A DNA stretch of 40,883 nucleotides from Okeania sp. SIO2B3. Its GTDB lineage: Bacteria > Cyanobacteriota > Cyanobacteriia > Cyanobacteriales > Microcoleaceae. Below, piece by piece: positions 5,292 to 34,660 of this stretch. How positions within the stretch are numbered: position 1 is the first letter of the stretch; each line of letters begins with the position of its first letter. The stretch is from contig NZ_JAAHGH010000068.1 in the NCBI RefSeq assembly GCF_010672525.1, positions 1 through 40,883 on the forward strand, given 5' to 3'. Made by a program: the position numbers and the translations under genes. The notes under the pieces are model-generated. The model worked only from the letters and a program-made list of their open reading frames with translations, was not told the DNA's origin and ran no database searches.

Positions 5292-6147
5292 ATTAGCTTG
5301 AAGAAGGCAGAAGGCAGGAGGCAGAAGGCAGGAGGCAGAAGGGAAAATTGTATGGGGATTCTAACCCCAAATAATTTTAAGCACCGTTTAGACGGTGGGG
5401 TATTAAGCCTATAAGGGAAAAGATAATTACTAACTATAGGAATAATTTTTAAATCTTGGTTTAGTGGTATTTTGGATGCTTATTTATTAAATTTCTAGAT
5501 TTTATTTTGTAATGAATTATTTTTTTAGCTCCTAATATAATGGCGCTTAGTATCATAAGTAATAGGTTTTACTCTGTCAAAAGACAAGCCGTCAAAGTTC
5601 CTCTCTTCCTGTCGCTTAGTTGATTTAGAAGCTCTTAACATTTATTTTAATATTTCCAAAAAATTACTTGACTTATGCAAATAAATATATAATTCTTACT
5701 ACTAATCACACTGAAAAAAATATCGATAAATGTACTATAGACATTCTGAAAATAGCTATGTTCAATAATTAATTATTAATAATTAATTATTACTTTCCCT
5801 AGAAAAGAAGAGGATTGACTCAAAGGTTTTTTTCTTGTTTCTCCTTTAAAGCAGAGGCTTTAAACCTTAATTTTTCAGTAAGTAAATTATTTGGCACAAA
5901 TCAAACAAGTTGTAAGAGAAAATAACTCTGAAAATATCCAGCTAAAAACCCCTTGGTTAACTGATAAAATAATTTATTAATTAGTTTAAAATTACGGTAA
6001 TTAATTGCAAAATTTACTCCTTAAAATATAAAAATCAAATATATTATAAATTAATGCTCCTTAAAAAATAATTATAATAGGGATTCAACTATTTTAAGAG
6101 ATGTTTATATAGTAATTACTTAGAAAATTAGTTAAGGATAAAAGTCA
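5292..6147. other. Gene-less spacer between ABC ATPase and chrA
   Basis: 856 bp without a credible gene. Contents: a GAAGGCA/GGAGGCA heptamer tract at about 5301-5343; two hairpins close together, TGGGGATTCTAACCCCA (5353-5369) and CACCGTTTAGACGGTG (5382-5397), which resemble the end structures of IS200/IS605-type elements; and a copy of the CTTTAAACCTTAAT repeat at about 5790-5880 preceded by AGAGGATTGACTCAAAGG, a string also found near 37160. The promoters of the divergent ATPase and chrA genes must be here. Confidence 0.55.
5301..5343. repeat. Heptamer tract (GAAGGCA/GGAGGCA)n
   Basis: Alternating GAAGGCA and GGAGGCA units with strict 7-bp period, ten bases upstream of the ABC ATPase start. 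It is a short tandemly repeated repetitive (STRR) sequence of the kind known from filamentous cyanobacteria. Confidence 0.75.
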
Positions 6148-7341
6148 TTGATTAGCAAAGAAAAATTGCAACGACTCCTCGAACTAGCAAGTGTTTTTCT
6201 CAAAGTAGGTAGTATCGGTTTTGGTGGTATGCCAGCCATTATTGCTATGATTAAATCTGAAGTTACTGATAAGCGAAAATGGCTTACTCAAGACCAATTT
6301 ATCGACTTTTTTGGTGCTACCAACCTGCTCCCTGGACCAAATACTGTGGAAATTGCTACTCATGTTGGTTATTTGCAAAGTGGATGGTGGGGATTTGCTA
6401 TTGCTGGTCTTTGTTTAGTTTTCCCATCAGCTCTAATTGCAATTGCTTTGGCTATCCTCTACAATCAATTCGGCTCACTTCCTGAAGTTACACCTTTTCT
6501 AGATGGGATTAAACCAGTTGTTCTATCTCTAATTTTACTGCCTGTCTATAAGTTGGGCAAAACAGCAATAAAACACTGGAGTTTGGCAGTAATTGTCATC
6601 TTTGTGATACCAGCATCAATCTTGGGATTAAATAACATAATTGTTATTCTTCTTGGGGGATTTTTGGGTATGTTTTGGCTTCATTTTTATCGGGAATTTA
6701 CCACTGAAACTCCGGCAAATATACCTTCGGAAAATACTAGAATTCGATTACCAAAAACACTGATAATCTTATTGATACTCCTGGGAGTATTTTTATTAAT
6801 TGATATCCTGACAACATCCGAGATTTCTCTATGGAAACTCAGTAGTTTTTGCCTGAAGGTAGGCAGTTTATTATATGGCAGTGGTTATGTATTAATTGCC
6901 TTCCTACAAGATTTAGTAGATCAGTTTCATTGGTTAACTCAGCAACAATTGTTGGATGCTATTGCTATCGGACAAATTACACCAGGTCCTTTGATTTCCA
7001 GCGTCACTTTTATCGGCTATTTATTATTAGGATTACCAGGGGCAATAGTAGGGACTATTTCAATTTTATTACCTGCATTTTTGTTTAGTGCTGCACTCAA
7101 TTCTTTGGTGCCACAAATGCGTAATTTTCGCTGGACTTGTGAATTACTTGATGCGATTAATGTTACTTCTATTGCTTTAATGGCATCTGCTTTTCTGACA
7201 TTATCTAGATCGACACTTATTAATTGGCAAACATTGTTGATTGCTCTATGTGCTTGTCTGATAAATTTTCGTTGGAAGGTAAATATTATTTTGATGATTT
7301 TTGTAGGTGCTATTTCTGGTTGGATACTATTCAGATTTTAA
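6148..7341 (+). CDS. chrA: ChrA-type chromate transporter (CHR family)
   Basis: A 397-residue polytopic membrane protein of the long CHR family, with two homologous halves. The first half has FGGMPAIIAMIKSEV, WLTQDQFIDFFG and LLPGPNTVEIATHVGY. The second half repeats the pattern with GSGYVLIAFLQDLV, WLTQQQLLDAIAIGQ and TPGPLISSVTFIGY. The start is TTG at 6148, preceded by AAGGA at 6134-6138 with good spacing. CHR proteins export chromate; cyanobacterial relatives (SrpC of Synechococcus plasmid pANL) are sulfur-regulated, so a link to the neighbouring sulfonate-like ABC genes is plausible but unproven. The gene lies between the ABC ATPase and permease genes in the opposite direction. Its 3' end is duplicated downstream. 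Confidence 0.9.
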   Translation: MISKEKLQRLLELASVFLKVGSIGFGGMPAIIAMIKSEVTDKRKWLTQDQFIDFFGATNLLPGPNTVEIATHVGYLQSGWWGFAIAGLCLVFPSALIAIALAILYNQFGSLPEVTPFLDGIKPVVLSLILLPVYKLGKTAIKHWSLAVIVIFVIPASILGLNNIIVILLGGFLGMFWLHFYREFTTETPANIPSENTRIRLPKTLIILLILLGVFLLIDILTTSEISLWKLSSFCLKVGSLLYGSGYVLIAFLQDLVDQFHWLTQQQLLDAIAIGQITPGPLISSVTFIGYLLLGLPGAIVGTISILLPAFLFSAALNSLVPQMRNFRWTCELLDAINVTSIALMASAFLTLSRSTLINWQTLLIALCACLINFRWKVNIILMIFVGAISGWILFRF

Positions 7342-7517
7342 TTGTTAACTTCAAATAGACAGTACTGCAAAATCTATAAGAATAAAGTAATAATAATAAA
7401 AAAACTCTGAATAAAATTGCCAAAAATAATTCTCTTTAGAAATACTGAAATTATCTTTACTTTTGTTTCTTCCTTCTTTGTTCCCTCCTGTCTCCTGTCT
7501 CCTGACTCCTGACTCCT
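7172..7517 (+). repeat. Tandem duplication unit 1 (chrA 3' end plus trailer)
   Basis: This unit comprises the last 170 bp of chrA, its AT-rich trailer and a CTCCTGT/CTCCTGA heptamer tract (about 7478-7517). It is directly followed by a second copy from 7518 that repeats the coding end, the trailer and the heptamers with a few substitutions and indels. The start-to-start distance is 346 bp. Confidence 0.85.
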
Positions 7518-7687
7518 TTGCTTTAATGGCATCTGCTTTTCTGACATTATCTAGAACGACACTGATTAACTGGCAAACTTTGTCGATCGCTATATGTGCT
7601 TGTCTGATAAATTTTCGTTGGAAGGTAAATATTATTTTGATGATTTTTTTAGGTGCTATTTCTGGTTGGATACTGTTCAGATTTTAA
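7518..7687 (+). pseudogene. Duplicated C-terminal fragment of chrA
   Basis: This encodes a second copy of the last 55 or so residues of ChrA (ALMASAFLTLSRTTLINWQT to the identical terminal GWILFRF), with a handful of changes. It is preceded in frame by the CTCCTGA heptamer tract, so an ORF can be drawn from 7463 that reads the tract as protein, but there is no sign that it is expressed. One last membrane segment alone cannot transport. I take it as a remnant of a tandem duplication. Confidence 0.8.
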
Positions 7688-7899
7688 TTGTTAACTTCAA
7701 ATAGGCAGTACTGCAAAATCTATGAAGAATAAAACTCTGAATAAAATTGCCAAAACAGCTTTTTTGTCAAAAATAATTCTCTTTATAAATACTGAAGTTA
7801 TCTTTACTTTTGTTTCTTCCTTCTTTGTTCCCTCCTGTCTCCTGTCTCTTGACTCCTTCTTCCCTCCTGACTCCTGTCTCCTGTCTCCTGACTCCTTCT
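7688..7899. repeat. Second chrA trailer copy with heptamer tract
   Basis: This is a copy of the chrA trailer (TTGTTAACTTCAAATAG through TCTTTACTTTTGTTTCTTCC) ending in a tract of CTCCTGT/CTCCTGA/CTTC heptamers (about 7831-7898) that runs right up to the stop codon of the ABC permease at 7900. It is convergent with the permease gene. Confidence 0.7.
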
Positions 7900-17100: not shown

Positions 17101-18078
17101 GTGCCTAATTTATCATTCAGCAAAATAGCAAAGTTTCCGGTTCCTATAAGAGTAGGAATTTTTATTTTAACATTACTTCTGAGTTGGATACCACTAGCAG
17201 CACCAATATATTTTTTTGGGCAAGATGCAAATTTGGCGAGTATATTGGCGATCGCTCTCCTATATATAGAGTTTATTATTTTGGTCCAGTTTTGGGGAAA
17301 GAAAGTTTATCAACAACCACATCTACTACGTCGCTACGGTTTAGAAATAAGTAGGCGCAACTTTCAGAATTTTTTTCAAGGTTTAGGAATAGGTTTATTT
17401 AGCTTATTTGGTTTTTTTATTTTAGAAGCGCTCCTGGGATGGGTAATATGGCAGTCACCTTCAGCAAAGTTACCTCAATTTATTCTGGAAGGTTTCTTGG
17501 TATCTCTGGGTATTGGTTTTGCTGAGGAGTTACTATTTCGAGGGTGGTTATTGGATGAGTTGGAGCGAGACTACAAACCAAAAGTAGCTTTGTGGGTAAG
17601 TAGTTTTGTATATGCTTTACTACACTTTATTAAACCAGTTGAGGAAATTTTGCGGACTTGGTTTCAGTTTCCTGGTTTGGTGTTGTTAGGTTTAATCTTT
17701 GTTTGGGCAAAACGTGATGAAGAAGGAAGAAGGAAGAAGGAAGCAGGAAGAAGGAAGCAGGAAGAAGGAAGAAGGAAGCAGGAAGAAGGAAGAAGGAAGA
17801 AGTGGATGGAGACTAATTGTAAAGACCTTGTAGATAGGGGGGTATTAAACTCAAAAGAAAAAGATAAATGGATTTATTATCAACAAGAATTATTGGGTTT
17901 GCCTATTGGTATTCATGCTGGTTTTGTTTGGGGTTATTACATTATTAATGTGGGTGGTTTAGTTAAGTATTCTAGTGTAGTTGGAGAGTGGATAATTGGG
18001 ATAAATGGTAATCCTTTGGCGGGTGTAATGGGGTGGTTTTTTTTAGGAGCGATCGCTTTATTTATTCAGCGAAAGTGA
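17101..18078 (+). CDS. CPBP-family intramembrane glutamic protease with an in-frame heptamer-repeat linker
   Basis: A polytopic membrane protein of the CPBP/Rce1-like family. I prefer GTG at 17101 as start (TATAGG lies just upstream; 17092 is an alternative giving 328 residues). The conserved motifs are present: EELLFRGWL, then FVYALLHFI, and in the last third GLPIGIHAGFVWGYY with the third-motif His. Between the second and third motifs lies a charged insert of four 7-residue units (EEGRRKK, EAGRRKQ, EEGRRKQ, EEGRRKK), encoded by exactly 12 heptamers at 17719-17802. The last 91 residues, from WMETN to the end IQRK, are repeated four more times downstream. Family members process prenylated proteins or peptides, or act in bacteriocin immunity; the substrate is unknown. 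Confidence 0.88.
   Translation: MPNLSFSKIAKFPVPIRVGIFILTLLLSWIPLAAPIYFFGQDANLASILAIALLYIEFIILVQFWGKKVYQQPHLLRRYGLEISRRNFQNFFQGLGIGLFSLFGFFILEALLGWVIWQSPSAKLPQFILEGFLVSLGIGFAEELLFRGWLLDELERDYKPKVALWVSSFVYALLHFIKPVEEILRTWFQFPGLVLLGLIFVWAKRDEEGRRKKEAGRRKQEEGRRKQEEGRRKKWMETNCKDLVDRGVLNSKEKDKWIYYQQELLGLPIGIHAGFVWGYYIINVGGLVKYSSVVGEWIIGINGNPLAGVMGWFFLGAIALFIQRK
17719..17802 (+). repeat. In-frame heptamer tract, 12 units of GAAGAAG/GAAGCAG
   Basis: Nine GAAGAAG and three GAAGCAG units run without interruption, 84 bp, giving 28 residues with a 7-residue period. Since 7 is not a multiple of 3, gain or loss of one or two units would shift the frame of the following third conserved motif, while a change of three units would keep it. 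Confidence 0.95.
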
Positions 18079-18144
18079 AAGGAAGAAGGAAGAAGGAATA
18101 AGGAAGAAGGAAGAAGGAATAAGGAATAAGGAATAAGGAATAAG

Positions 18145-18421
18145 TGGATGGAGACTAATTTTAAAGACCTTGTAGATATGGGGGGTATTAAACTCAAAAG
18201 AAAAAGATAAATGGATTTATTATCAACAAGAATTATTGGGTTTGCCTATTGGTATTCATGCTGGTTTTGTTTGGGGTTATTACATTATTAATGTGGGTGG
18301 TTTAGTTAAGTATTCTAGTGTAGTTGGAGAGTGGGTAGTTGGGATAAATGGTAATCCTTTGGCGGGTGTAATGGGGTGGTTTTTTTTAGGAGCGATCGCT
18401 TTATTTATTCAGCGAAAGTGA
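18145..18421 (+). pseudogene. CPBP C-terminal module, copy 2 (frame broken)
   Basis: A copy of the last third of the CPBP gene without the first two motifs. One extra base near GTAGATATGGGGGG, compared with the in-gene copy, puts the first 25 codons out of frame with the rest. Only GLPIGIHAGF onward is open, from a TTG. It differs from copy 1 by VV for II in GEWVVGING. Confidence 0.85.
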
Positions 18422-18473
18422 AAGGAAGAAGGAAGAAGGAAGAAGGAAGAAAGAAGAAAGAAGAAGGAAGAAG

Positions 18474-18750
18474 TGGATGGAGACTAATTTTAAAGACCTT
18501 GTAGATAGGGGGGGTATTAAACTCAAAAGAAAAAGATAAATGGATTGATTATCAACAAGAATTATTGGGTTTGCCTATTGGTATTCATGCTGGTTTTGTT
18601 TGGGGTTATTACATTATTAATGTGGGTGGTTTAGTTAAATATTCTAGTGTAGTTGGAGAGTGGATAATTGGGATAAATGGTAATCCTTTGGCGGGTGTAA
18701 TGGGGTGGTTTTTTTTAGGAGCGATCGCTTTATTTATTCAGCGAAAATGA
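18474..18750 (+). pseudogene. CPBP C-terminal module, copy 3 (frame broken)
   Basis: This has seven instead of six G after GTAGATA, so it is frameshifted at the same spot as copy 2. The rest matches copy 1 with D for Y in WIDYQQ. It cannot make a full protease alone. Confidence 0.85.
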
Positions 18751-18774
18751 AAGGAAGAAGGAAGAAGGAAGAAG

Positions 18775-19050
18775 TGGATGGAGACTAATTTTAAAGACCT
18801 TGTAGATAGGGGGGTATTAAACTCAAAAGAAAAAGATAAATGGATTGATTATCAACAAGAATTATTGGGTTTGCCTATTGGTATTCATGCTGGTTTTGTT
18901 TGGGGTTATTACATTATTAATGTGGGTGGTTTAGTTAAATATTCTAGTGTAGTTGGAGAGTGGATAATTGGGATAAATGGTAATCCTTTGGCGGGTGTAA
19001 TGGGGTGGTTTTTTTTAGGAGCGATCGCTTTATTTATTCAGCGAAAGTGA
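18775..19050 (+). pseudogene. CPBP C-terminal module, copy 4 (open frame)
   Basis: The frame is intact for 90 codons from ATG at 18778, encoding METNFKDLVDRGVLNSKEKD through the third-motif His and both last membrane segments. No ribosome-binding site other than the purine-rich heptamers (GGAAGAAG) lies upstream; these could by chance act as one. It would give a two-helix protein lacking the Glu-Glu and first His motifs. Confidence 0.75.
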
Positions 19051-19109
19051 AAGGAAGAAGGAAGAAGGAAGAAGGAAGAAAGAAGAAGGAAGAAGGAAGA
19101 AGGAAGAAG

Positions 19110-19385
19110 TGGATGGAGACTAATTTTAAAGACCTTGTAGATAGGGGGGTATTAAACTCAAAAGAAAAAGATAAATGTATTGATTATCAACAACAATTAT
19201 TGGGTTTGCCTATTGGTATTCATGCTGGTTTTGTTTGGGGTTATTACATTATTAATGTGGGTGGTTTAGTTAAATATTCTAGTGTAGTTGAAGAGTGGGT
19301 AGTTGGGATAAATGGTAATCCTTTGGCGGGTGTAATGGGGTGGTTTTTTTTAGGAGCGATCGCTTTATTTATTCAGCGAAAGTGA
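19110..19385 (+). pseudogene. CPBP C-terminal module, copy 5 (open frame, most diverged)
   Basis: Six G, so the frame is intact. Changes against copy 4 include C for W, Q for E, E for G and VV for II. An open frame can be extended upstream to 19005 through the heptamer tract and the tail of copy 4 in another frame, again giving GRRKKEEG-like residues. It is probably not expressed, but nothing in it rules that out. Confidence 0.75.
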
Positions 19386-19585
19386 AAGGAAGAAGGAAGA
19401 AGGAAGAAGGAAGAAGGAAGAAAGTTTTTTTGATCACGCTCTTATCCGGACATGATATTAGTTGTGTTTTGACTGAAGCTTATCACCCAAAAATGGAATA
19501 AGTCAATTCTCCCCATCTCCCAACTTCTTCATCTCCCCATCTCCCTATCTCTCCCAACTATATAATAGGTATTCAACCGGATTTG
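19386..19585. other. Spacer after the CPBP array
   Basis: It begins with a last GGAAGAA heptamer tract (19386-19422). GCTCTTATCCGGACATGATA at about 19438 recurs near 40310. A C-rich irregular tract (CATCTCCC units, about 19512-19555) follows. No gene was seen. Confidence 0.5.
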
Positions 19586-34070: not shown

Positions 34071-34495
34071 TTACTTAAATTCCGGATCGCCTGACACCTA
34101 CCATTCAAGAAAGGGTAGGGAGGATAAATCATATATTTAGGAATTAGGGATTTTTGAGTTTTAAACACTACATATCTGTAACGTTATAGTTTTTGCTCAC
34201 TATATATACTCTGTTTACCTAAATTCTGATAACCTAACACCTAGCACTAAAGTCCCGGTAGAGAGGATAAATCATATATTTAGGACTTAAGTATTTTTGA
34301 GTTTTAAACACTACATATCTGTAACGTTATAGTTTTTGCTCACTATATATACTCTTGACCTAAATACTGATCGCCTACCACCTAACACTCAAGGAAGGGT
34401 AGGGAGTATAAATCATATACTTAGGAATTAGGTATTTTTGAGTTCTAAACACTACATATCTATAACGTTATAGTTTTTGTTCACTATATATAGTA
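34071..34495. repeat. Three tandem units of about 142 bp
   Basis: Units start near 34071, 34215 and 34356. Each begins TTACCTAAAT or similar, contains ATAAATCATATATTTAGGA, then ATTTTTGAGTTTTAAACACT and ACATATCTGTAACGTTATAG, and ends TTTTTGCTCACTATATATA. The 8-bp palindrome TAACGTTA is kept in every unit and in the partial copy near 33750. No frame stays open through it. It could be a protein-binding array or structured RNA; there is no direct evidence for either. Confidence 0.8.
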
Positions 34496-34660
34496 GTTGA
34501 AGCAAATGGTGCGGACATATCAAAAGCTTAAAACTCATACAACGCAAGATTTTTCAGTCCTTCGCTCCTTCCTTCTTCCTTTTTTGAACAATGAACAATA
34601 CTCAATTTTATTGTAGTAATTGTTCATTGAACATTCATCAGAATTAATTTTGTAATTAAA

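Follow-up and report, generated by a model that had tools for sequence, protein, structure and literature searches.

A dispersed in-frame repeat of Okeania and the multiplied 3' end of a CPBP protease gene

In this study, we examined an array of repeated gene ends in the marine cyanobacterium Okeania sp. SIO2B3 (G000; 10.0 Mb), which lies within a window of 40,883 bp on contig C215 (by the window we mean this whole stretch of DNA). A gene for a predicted CPBP/Rce1-like intramembrane protease is followed there by four further copies of its own 3' end, each led by a tract of 7-bp units (heptamers). We found that the in-gene tract forms the leading part of a dispersed coding element, which is present in frame in many genes, a relationship that the preliminary description of this DNA had overlooked. 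The account we favour, to which we assign a probability of about 0.75, is that a copy of this element would have settled in the hinge of the protease, that heptamer tracts would have mediated multiplication of the gene tail, and that the spare tails would since have drifted neutrally. The array has most likely come about as a neutral by-product, and the element behind it is the finding worth following up.

The dispersed element and its host genes

A BLAST comparison of the protease gene with the G000 genome returned many matches that span the tract and ~67 bp beyond it. The first ~67 bp of each array unit therefore match a dispersed element and are not ancestral protease sequence. The element consists of a (GGAAGAA)n head and a ~79-bp core (consensus TGGATGGGGACTCAAACCCCAACCAATTGTCAACACCCTGTAGACGGCGGGGTATTAAACCCAAAAGAAAAAGATA, built from 22 copies selected by pattern among the 41 loci offered, 16 of which went into a further comparison), and it is readable as protein in one frame (EEGRRKKWMGTQTPTNCQHPVDGGVLNPKEKD). 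At twenty loci with element matches, the head, the core or, mostly, both were present. Four congeners were compared, G001 to G004, which match the Okeania records SIO3B5, O. hirsuta PAB10Feb10-1, SIO2C9 and SIO1I7, respectively (one genome per Okeania species in all comparisons; Okeania genome sizes 8.8-11.1 Mb). G000 contains 15 occurrences of the word GAAGAAGTGGATGG, four of them in the array, and G002, G003, G004 and G001 contain 6, 6, 12 and 13; read backwards, the word occurs in none of G000 to G004. The 30-aa element peptide gave 74 matches in G000, 74 in G001, at least 76 in G002 (150 of 190 candidates scored), at least 100 in G003 (150 of 167 scored) and 83 in G004. Among 34 other genomes, G016 and G021 each gave one weak match, and no match to the peptide was found in the remaining 32 of the 39 genomes. 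The element is a dispersed short repeat, present in tens of copies and restricted to one lineage, and it is located both between genes and, in coding frame, inside unrelated genes.

The distribution of reading frames is strongly skewed. In G000, 22 of the 74 matches are stop-free within open frames of at least 200 aa (19 open reading frames, ORFs; several matches within one ORF are not independent). Two other frames of the core consensus, forward frame +2 and one reverse frame, are open as well, and the peptides of these control frames, which match largely the same places as the coding-frame peptide, lie within such open frames in 1/73 and 0/69 cases (Fisher 1.1e-6 and 1.0e-7 vs 22/74). Among matches without an internal stop, 22/47 are in frame, against 0 of ~40 for the reverse frame and 1 of ~16 for frame +2, which is the weaker control because most copies contain stops in that frame; this, together with the weakness of two of the 22 in-frame matches (E 0.004 and 0.0056), counts against the bias as we read it. 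At 15 places there is no long frame. Fourteen of these have ORFs of at least 100 aa in the locus, none of which contains the full core (0/14), and six of the 15 places have a same-strand ORF that either stops no more than ~75 bp from the core or enters it. Most simply, the in-frame bias reflects selective removal of out-of-frame insertions.

Among the hosts recognized by Pfam, the insert lies inside the matched domain in CobN and in a phosphorylase-superfamily protein, between domains in CbiG/CobJ and in a response regulator with Hpt, behind the repeats of a TPR protein, and, in a histidine kinase, ahead of the matched part of the ATPase domain (the first 36 profile positions are unmatched). 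G000, G004 and G001 carry the CobN insert and G002 and G003 lack it, their flanks being joined cleanly, and in none of the 10 non-Okeania genomes searched does CobN align through the insert. The phosphorylase-family gene carries the insert in all five Okeania genomes and lacks it in G010. The element is inserted in frame and in sense in genes unrelated to one another, and the corresponding sites of some relatives are empty.

Between G000 and G004 the inserts differ by 21 bp in CobN and by 42 bp in the CPBP gene, whose hinge is in frame in all five Okeania genomes. In one gene, PAS-like as judged by eye, a single match in G000 (L207) corresponds to four tandem matches at 132-bp steps in G001 (L188), and the element has therefore grown in tandem and in frame outside the CPBP gene as well; in the CPBP gene, the grown unit extended past the stop codon. 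The heptamer unit is 7 bp long (1 mod 3) and yields one and the same stop-free peptide cycle, GRRKKEE, whichever frame is read, so that gain or loss of heptamers could adjust the frame of the sequence that follows. We tentatively suggest, at somewhat less than even odds, that the element is a mobile repeat that codes for protein and is still spreading, and that its heptamer head serves as both frame adjuster and growth engine. Expansion in place would then give rise to tandem in-frame repeats within proteins and, where a second tract is present behind the stop codon, to arrays of entire gene tails.

Hairpin z scores of the core ranged from -1.6 to -2.3 in three sequences (the computed consensus among them) and reached +0.4 in the CPBP copy; two short helices are 90% paired, with covariation not above shuffles. 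Another dispersed in-frame sequence (GATPRRRQTQ...DQERKK and variants) lies inside or beside the heptamer head at six loci (L180, L195, L199, L200, L210 and L211), and other repeats seem to land in such heads. In a G000 sample, 3 of 196 heptamer tracts of at least 28 bp lie deep inside ORFs of at least 150 aa, and two of these three are element copies. Fourteen of the 196 belong to the AACTGAT (TAACTGA) class, which has been reported for Beggiatoaceae and cyanobacteria (PMC4679880). Elsewhere in the window, at 5330-5419, a weak core match near an AGAAGGC heptamer tract is perhaps a decayed element copy.

The protease gene and its single-tail relatives

The array adjoins a gene whose product is a predicted CPBP/Rce1-like intramembrane protease by both its profile match and its conserved motifs. 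PF02517 matches residues 129-206 (profile positions 3-73 of 93, E 1.3e-13, 51.5 bits vs a gathering score of 22.4), and the match reaches profile position 79 and 90 of 93 in two orthologues without the hinge insert. In an alignment of 29 orthologues (5 Okeania and 24 non-Okeania; L024, which ends at a contig edge, was omitted), E145, E146, R150, H178 and H275 are invariant, and N286 is nearly so (at least 90% of the sequences). We take these residues to represent EExxxR, the H of motif 2 and the H/N of motif 3. Both H275 and N286 are in the tail, and in this respect the preliminary description was right to see the third motif in the repeated 3' end; it did not recognize that each copy begins with inserted element.

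An AlphaFold model of the protease (pLDDT 78.8) has its last N-terminal helix continuing into a charged stretch, with low confidence at 242-253 and 256-265, followed by the tail helices. The best Foldseek match was SpdC (6u0o; probability 1.00 but E 0.12), and a sequence search of solved structures gave no match. Orthologues of the protease were found in 58 of the 59 genomes searched, G000 counted. In the N-terminal part, dN/dS between G000 and G004 is 0.26 (8 nonsynonymous and 9 synonymous changes; pS 0.066), and the gene therefore looks to be kept by purifying selection.

In the orthologue alignment, the hinge insert is present in all five Okeania rows and absent from all 24 non-Okeania rows. 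As for the tail, the preliminary description had proposed that related genomes be searched for a single-copy form of the gene, and each of the four congeners has a single tail. In G004, the nearest relative, a 42-bp tract lies inside the gene and a second tract directly behind the stop codon; with tracts on both sides of a single tail, this is the expected substrate for unequal crossing-over. The proposal that the tracts provide homology for such exchange gains support from this arrangement and from the conflicting site patterns among the copies described below. In G001, the protease hinge contains an in-frame partial duplication, and the hinges of G002 and G003 also contain HPPLPPFERKK / IPPCPPLKG inserts.

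From these comparisons, we propose the following series of events. A copy of the element would have entered the CPBP hinge no later than the common ancestor of the five Okeania species and would have added a charged linker there. In the G000/G004 lineage, a second heptamer tract would have been present just behind the stop codon. Unequal crossing-over between the two tracts could have multiplied the unit of tract, core and gene tail to five copies in G000, after which the spare tails would drift neutrally, probably swapping sequence among themselves. The G004 tail differs from the array copies by 5-8 positions and the copies from each other by 2-8; with the N-terminal pS of 0.066, this is consistent with expansion after the G000-G004 split, if the copies are neutral.

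The tail array and alternative explanations

The gene and four spare tails form the array that the preliminary description had reported, each copy led by a tract (Table 1). Its description of two copies broken by one extra base at the same G run, and two left open, also holds: copies 2 and 3, when read from their own ATG, are out of frame. Tracts precede all five copies as claimed, but the GGAATAA units described alongside GGAAGAA are confined to the tract before copy 2.

Table 1. Coordinates of the protease gene, the in-gene element and the units of the tail array within the window.
Feature	Position	Strand	Basis or remark
CPBP/Rce1-like intramembrane protease gene (predicted), 328 aa	17092..18078	+	PF02517; hinge, from H178 to H275, holds the element
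Dispersed Okeania element, copy in coding frame: head 17719-17802 (12 heptamers) and core ~17803-17869	17719..17869	+	BLAST matches across G000; peptide match 17791-17868
Tail copy 1 (part of gene), 276 bp	17803..18078	+	Copy alignment
Heptamer tract with GGAATAA units, 66 bp, directly behind the gene's stop codon	18079..18144	+	
Tail copy 2, 277 bp, frameshifted at G run	18145..18421	+	Copy alignment
Heptamer tract, 52 bp	18422..18473	+	
Tail copy 3, 277 bp, frameshifted at G run	18474..18750	+	Copy alignment
Heptamer tract, 24 bp	18751..18774	+	
Tail copy 4, 276 bp, open, 90 aa from ATG 18778	18775..19050	+	
Heptamer tract, 59 bp	19051..19109	+	
Tail copy 5, 276 bp, open	19110..19385	+	
Terminal heptamer tract behind copy 5, 39 bp	19386..19424	+	

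Ten alignment columns vary among the five copies, with pairwise differences of 2-8 per 276 bp. The changes comprise 7 nonsynonymous, 2 synonymous and 1 indel; against 217 nonsynonymous and 56 synonymous sites, this is about the neutral ratio. In the membrane part the variants are I/V and G/E, which are also seen between species. Columns 86 and 178 separate copies 1 and 2 from copies 3, 4 and 5, columns 203 and 206 separate copies 1, 3 and 4 from copies 2 and 5, and all four combinations of the two splits are present within 121 bp. Such conflict suggests that the tail copies probably exchange sequence with each other.

The preliminary description raised the possibility that the array is a store of alternative C termini, in which downstream tails recombine into the gene, vary the protease C terminus and are selected for variability. 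The partial copies led by tracts behind an intact gene and the exchange suggested by the site patterns would fit a store of this kind, and a deletion between tracts would give the gene a new tail, in frame about one time in three. Diverse, intact donor cassettes are not what the array holds, however, as two of the four spare tails are frameshifted, the ratio of changes is near neutral, the variants are few and conservative, and four congeners manage without spare tails. We consider a selected store very unlikely. The second option in that description, neutral expansion, fits better, and judging by these substitutions the spare tails are most likely useless to the cell.

Alternatively, slippage of the in-gene tract could act as a contingency switch that turns the protease tail on and off. 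The tract (84 bp) lies inside the ORF and is made of units whose length is not a multiple of three, so that each unit gained or lost shifts the frame; there are 92% matches between units, and tract length differs between G000 and G004. Nevertheless, the hinge has stayed in frame in every Okeania genome compared, the 42-bp difference is a multiple of 21, three of the 12 units are interrupted, and the same element is present in many other genes, all of which make a switch unlikely.

Expression of the spare tails as mini-proteins is another explanation, in which copies 4 and 5, together with a start inside copy 1, would yield 90-residue, two-helix membrane peptides that complement or regulate the protease, with the tract as Shine-Dalgarno sequence. 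Open ORFs in copies 4 and 5 accord with this idea, as does the tract followed by TGGATG in all five Okeania genomes; in G000, G002, G003 and G004, the last GGAAG stops six bases ahead of the ATG. However, TGGATG belongs to the element core and is present at many other places, a purifying signal was not found among the copies, and promoter-like sites (8 vs a shuffle mean of 7.5) are not above shuffles. We therefore regard functional mini-proteins as very unlikely.

The copy number or order could also be an error of assembly. An exact 127-bp overlap flanks all eight of the 100-N gaps in sampled G000 contigs, the signature of short-read scaffolding at k=127, and the structure of the array is therefore to be treated cautiously. 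Three exact repeats within it exceed 127 bp, so that some linkage between copies is uncertain; one, of 155 bp, is common to copies 1 and 2 and leaves the linkage of their two halves uncertain. On the other hand, the window contains no N, every tail copy has at least 219 unique 127-mer starts, and every tract of the array is shorter than 127 bp, so that the junctions from tail through tract to tail fit within one k-mer. A misassembled array is, in our view, highly improbable. Several tandem-duplication clusters in the G000 sample were gap artefacts of this type (127-bp overlap around 100 N) and were discounted. On contig C195 (245363-249156), where the tail of an 872-aa ORF is repeated downstream, part of the repetition is such an artefact.

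Tract-mediated multiplication of a tail that carries an inserted element remains the reading we prefer, and several observations weigh against it. Neither a target-site duplication nor a mobility enzyme was identified for the element. In 1.24 Mb of G000, 15 of 58 local tandem duplications touch a heptamer tract, compared with a random mean of 10.6, and 96 of 1000 random placements reach 15; heptamers as a general cause of local duplication were rejected on this basis. Nor is tail duplication unique to the CPBP gene, a notion rejected because 16 of 587 sampled G000 ORFs have their tail repeated within 2 kb downstream (11/587 have their head repeated upstream, and some of these are tandem paralogues); four extra tails were seen only in the CPBP gene. 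Site 203 also varies between species, in G002, and recurrent mutation could mimic exchange between copies. Finally, the array may be ancestral and have been lost in G004.

Known systems and other duplicated gene ends

Gene-invading, in-frame coding repeats are reported from few lineages, namely Rickettsia, Wolbachia and one archaeon, Methanocaldococcus jannaschii; the Rickettsia palindromic elements (RPE) and similar repeats are described as short, dispersed, in-frame translated inserts in unrelated housekeeping genes (PMC10969869, PMC2996958). The Okeania element is likewise dispersed and inserted in frame in unrelated genes, but it belongs to another phylum, begins with a variable heptamer tract, has short and weak hairpins in place of a long palindrome, and shows both in-frame tandem growth and growth of a gene tail. 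Since a strong palindrome was not shown, we say that the element appears to work like an RPE and do not call it one; the likeness lies in dispersion and in-frame insertion. If the element is indeed still spreading and growing through its head, cyanobacteria would have their own equivalent of the Rickettsia elements, one that contains within itself a path by which an insertion becomes new protein repeats. With tens of matches per genome, a site that is filled in some sister species and empty in others, and hosts that include CobN and a histidine kinase, the Okeania family is a good system in which to study spread, tolerance and the origin of protein repeats, and the protease array represents a further step, in which an inserted repeat makes a gene tail an amplifiable unit.

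Heptamer repeats in themselves are familiar from cyanobacteria: those of Calothrix and Nostoc are described as tandem 7-bp units that are mostly intergenic (PMC4692102, PMC4679880). The Okeania tracts are also tandem 7-bp units; they differ in being joined to a conserved core and tolerated inside genes. The cyanobacterial repeats are of the STRR type. Silent partial-gene cassettes are known from Neisseria pilS, Borrelia vls and orphan CdiA/Rhs tails, and the Okeania array resembles them in that several partial 3' copies, all preceded by a shared sequence, lie behind a single complete gene, whereas its copies are nearly identical, half of the spares are broken and functional diversification was not seen. 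Unequal crossing-over between flanking direct repeats produces tandem duplications, and the Okeania unit does run from tract to tract, with both tracts present in the single-tail relative; here, however, one of the repeats is inside the reading frame, and the unit consists of the gene tail, stop codon included. Searches of open-licence papers turned up no account of this element or of an arrayed protease tail.

Across 388 genomes of the order, G000 has five CPBP tail matches and the maximum elsewhere is three, in 14 genomes, among the matches listed. Two of these 14, G014 and G032, of another genus, were inspected. In both, a second CPBP tail starts from the same hinge boundary and lies behind two genes (L062 1605-2665 and L061 1461-2655, respectively), a separate event without heptamers. 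The two small genes have no Pfam match. Ten neighbours in that genus have one tail in the stretch compared, and the second tail of G032 has a downstream flank common to 4 of the 10. It looks as if a cassette had been inserted that brought its own replacement tail.

Two further repeats lie within the window itself. A chromate efflux transporter gene (6148-7341) has one additional copy of its 3' end downstream, at 89.7% identity (both ends span 7165-7857), and heptamer tracts of CTCCTGA/CTCCTGT lie at the junction and at the end; this is a second gene-tail duplication in the same window, apparently an older one. At 34085-34500, a 141-bp unit is repeated 2.9 times.

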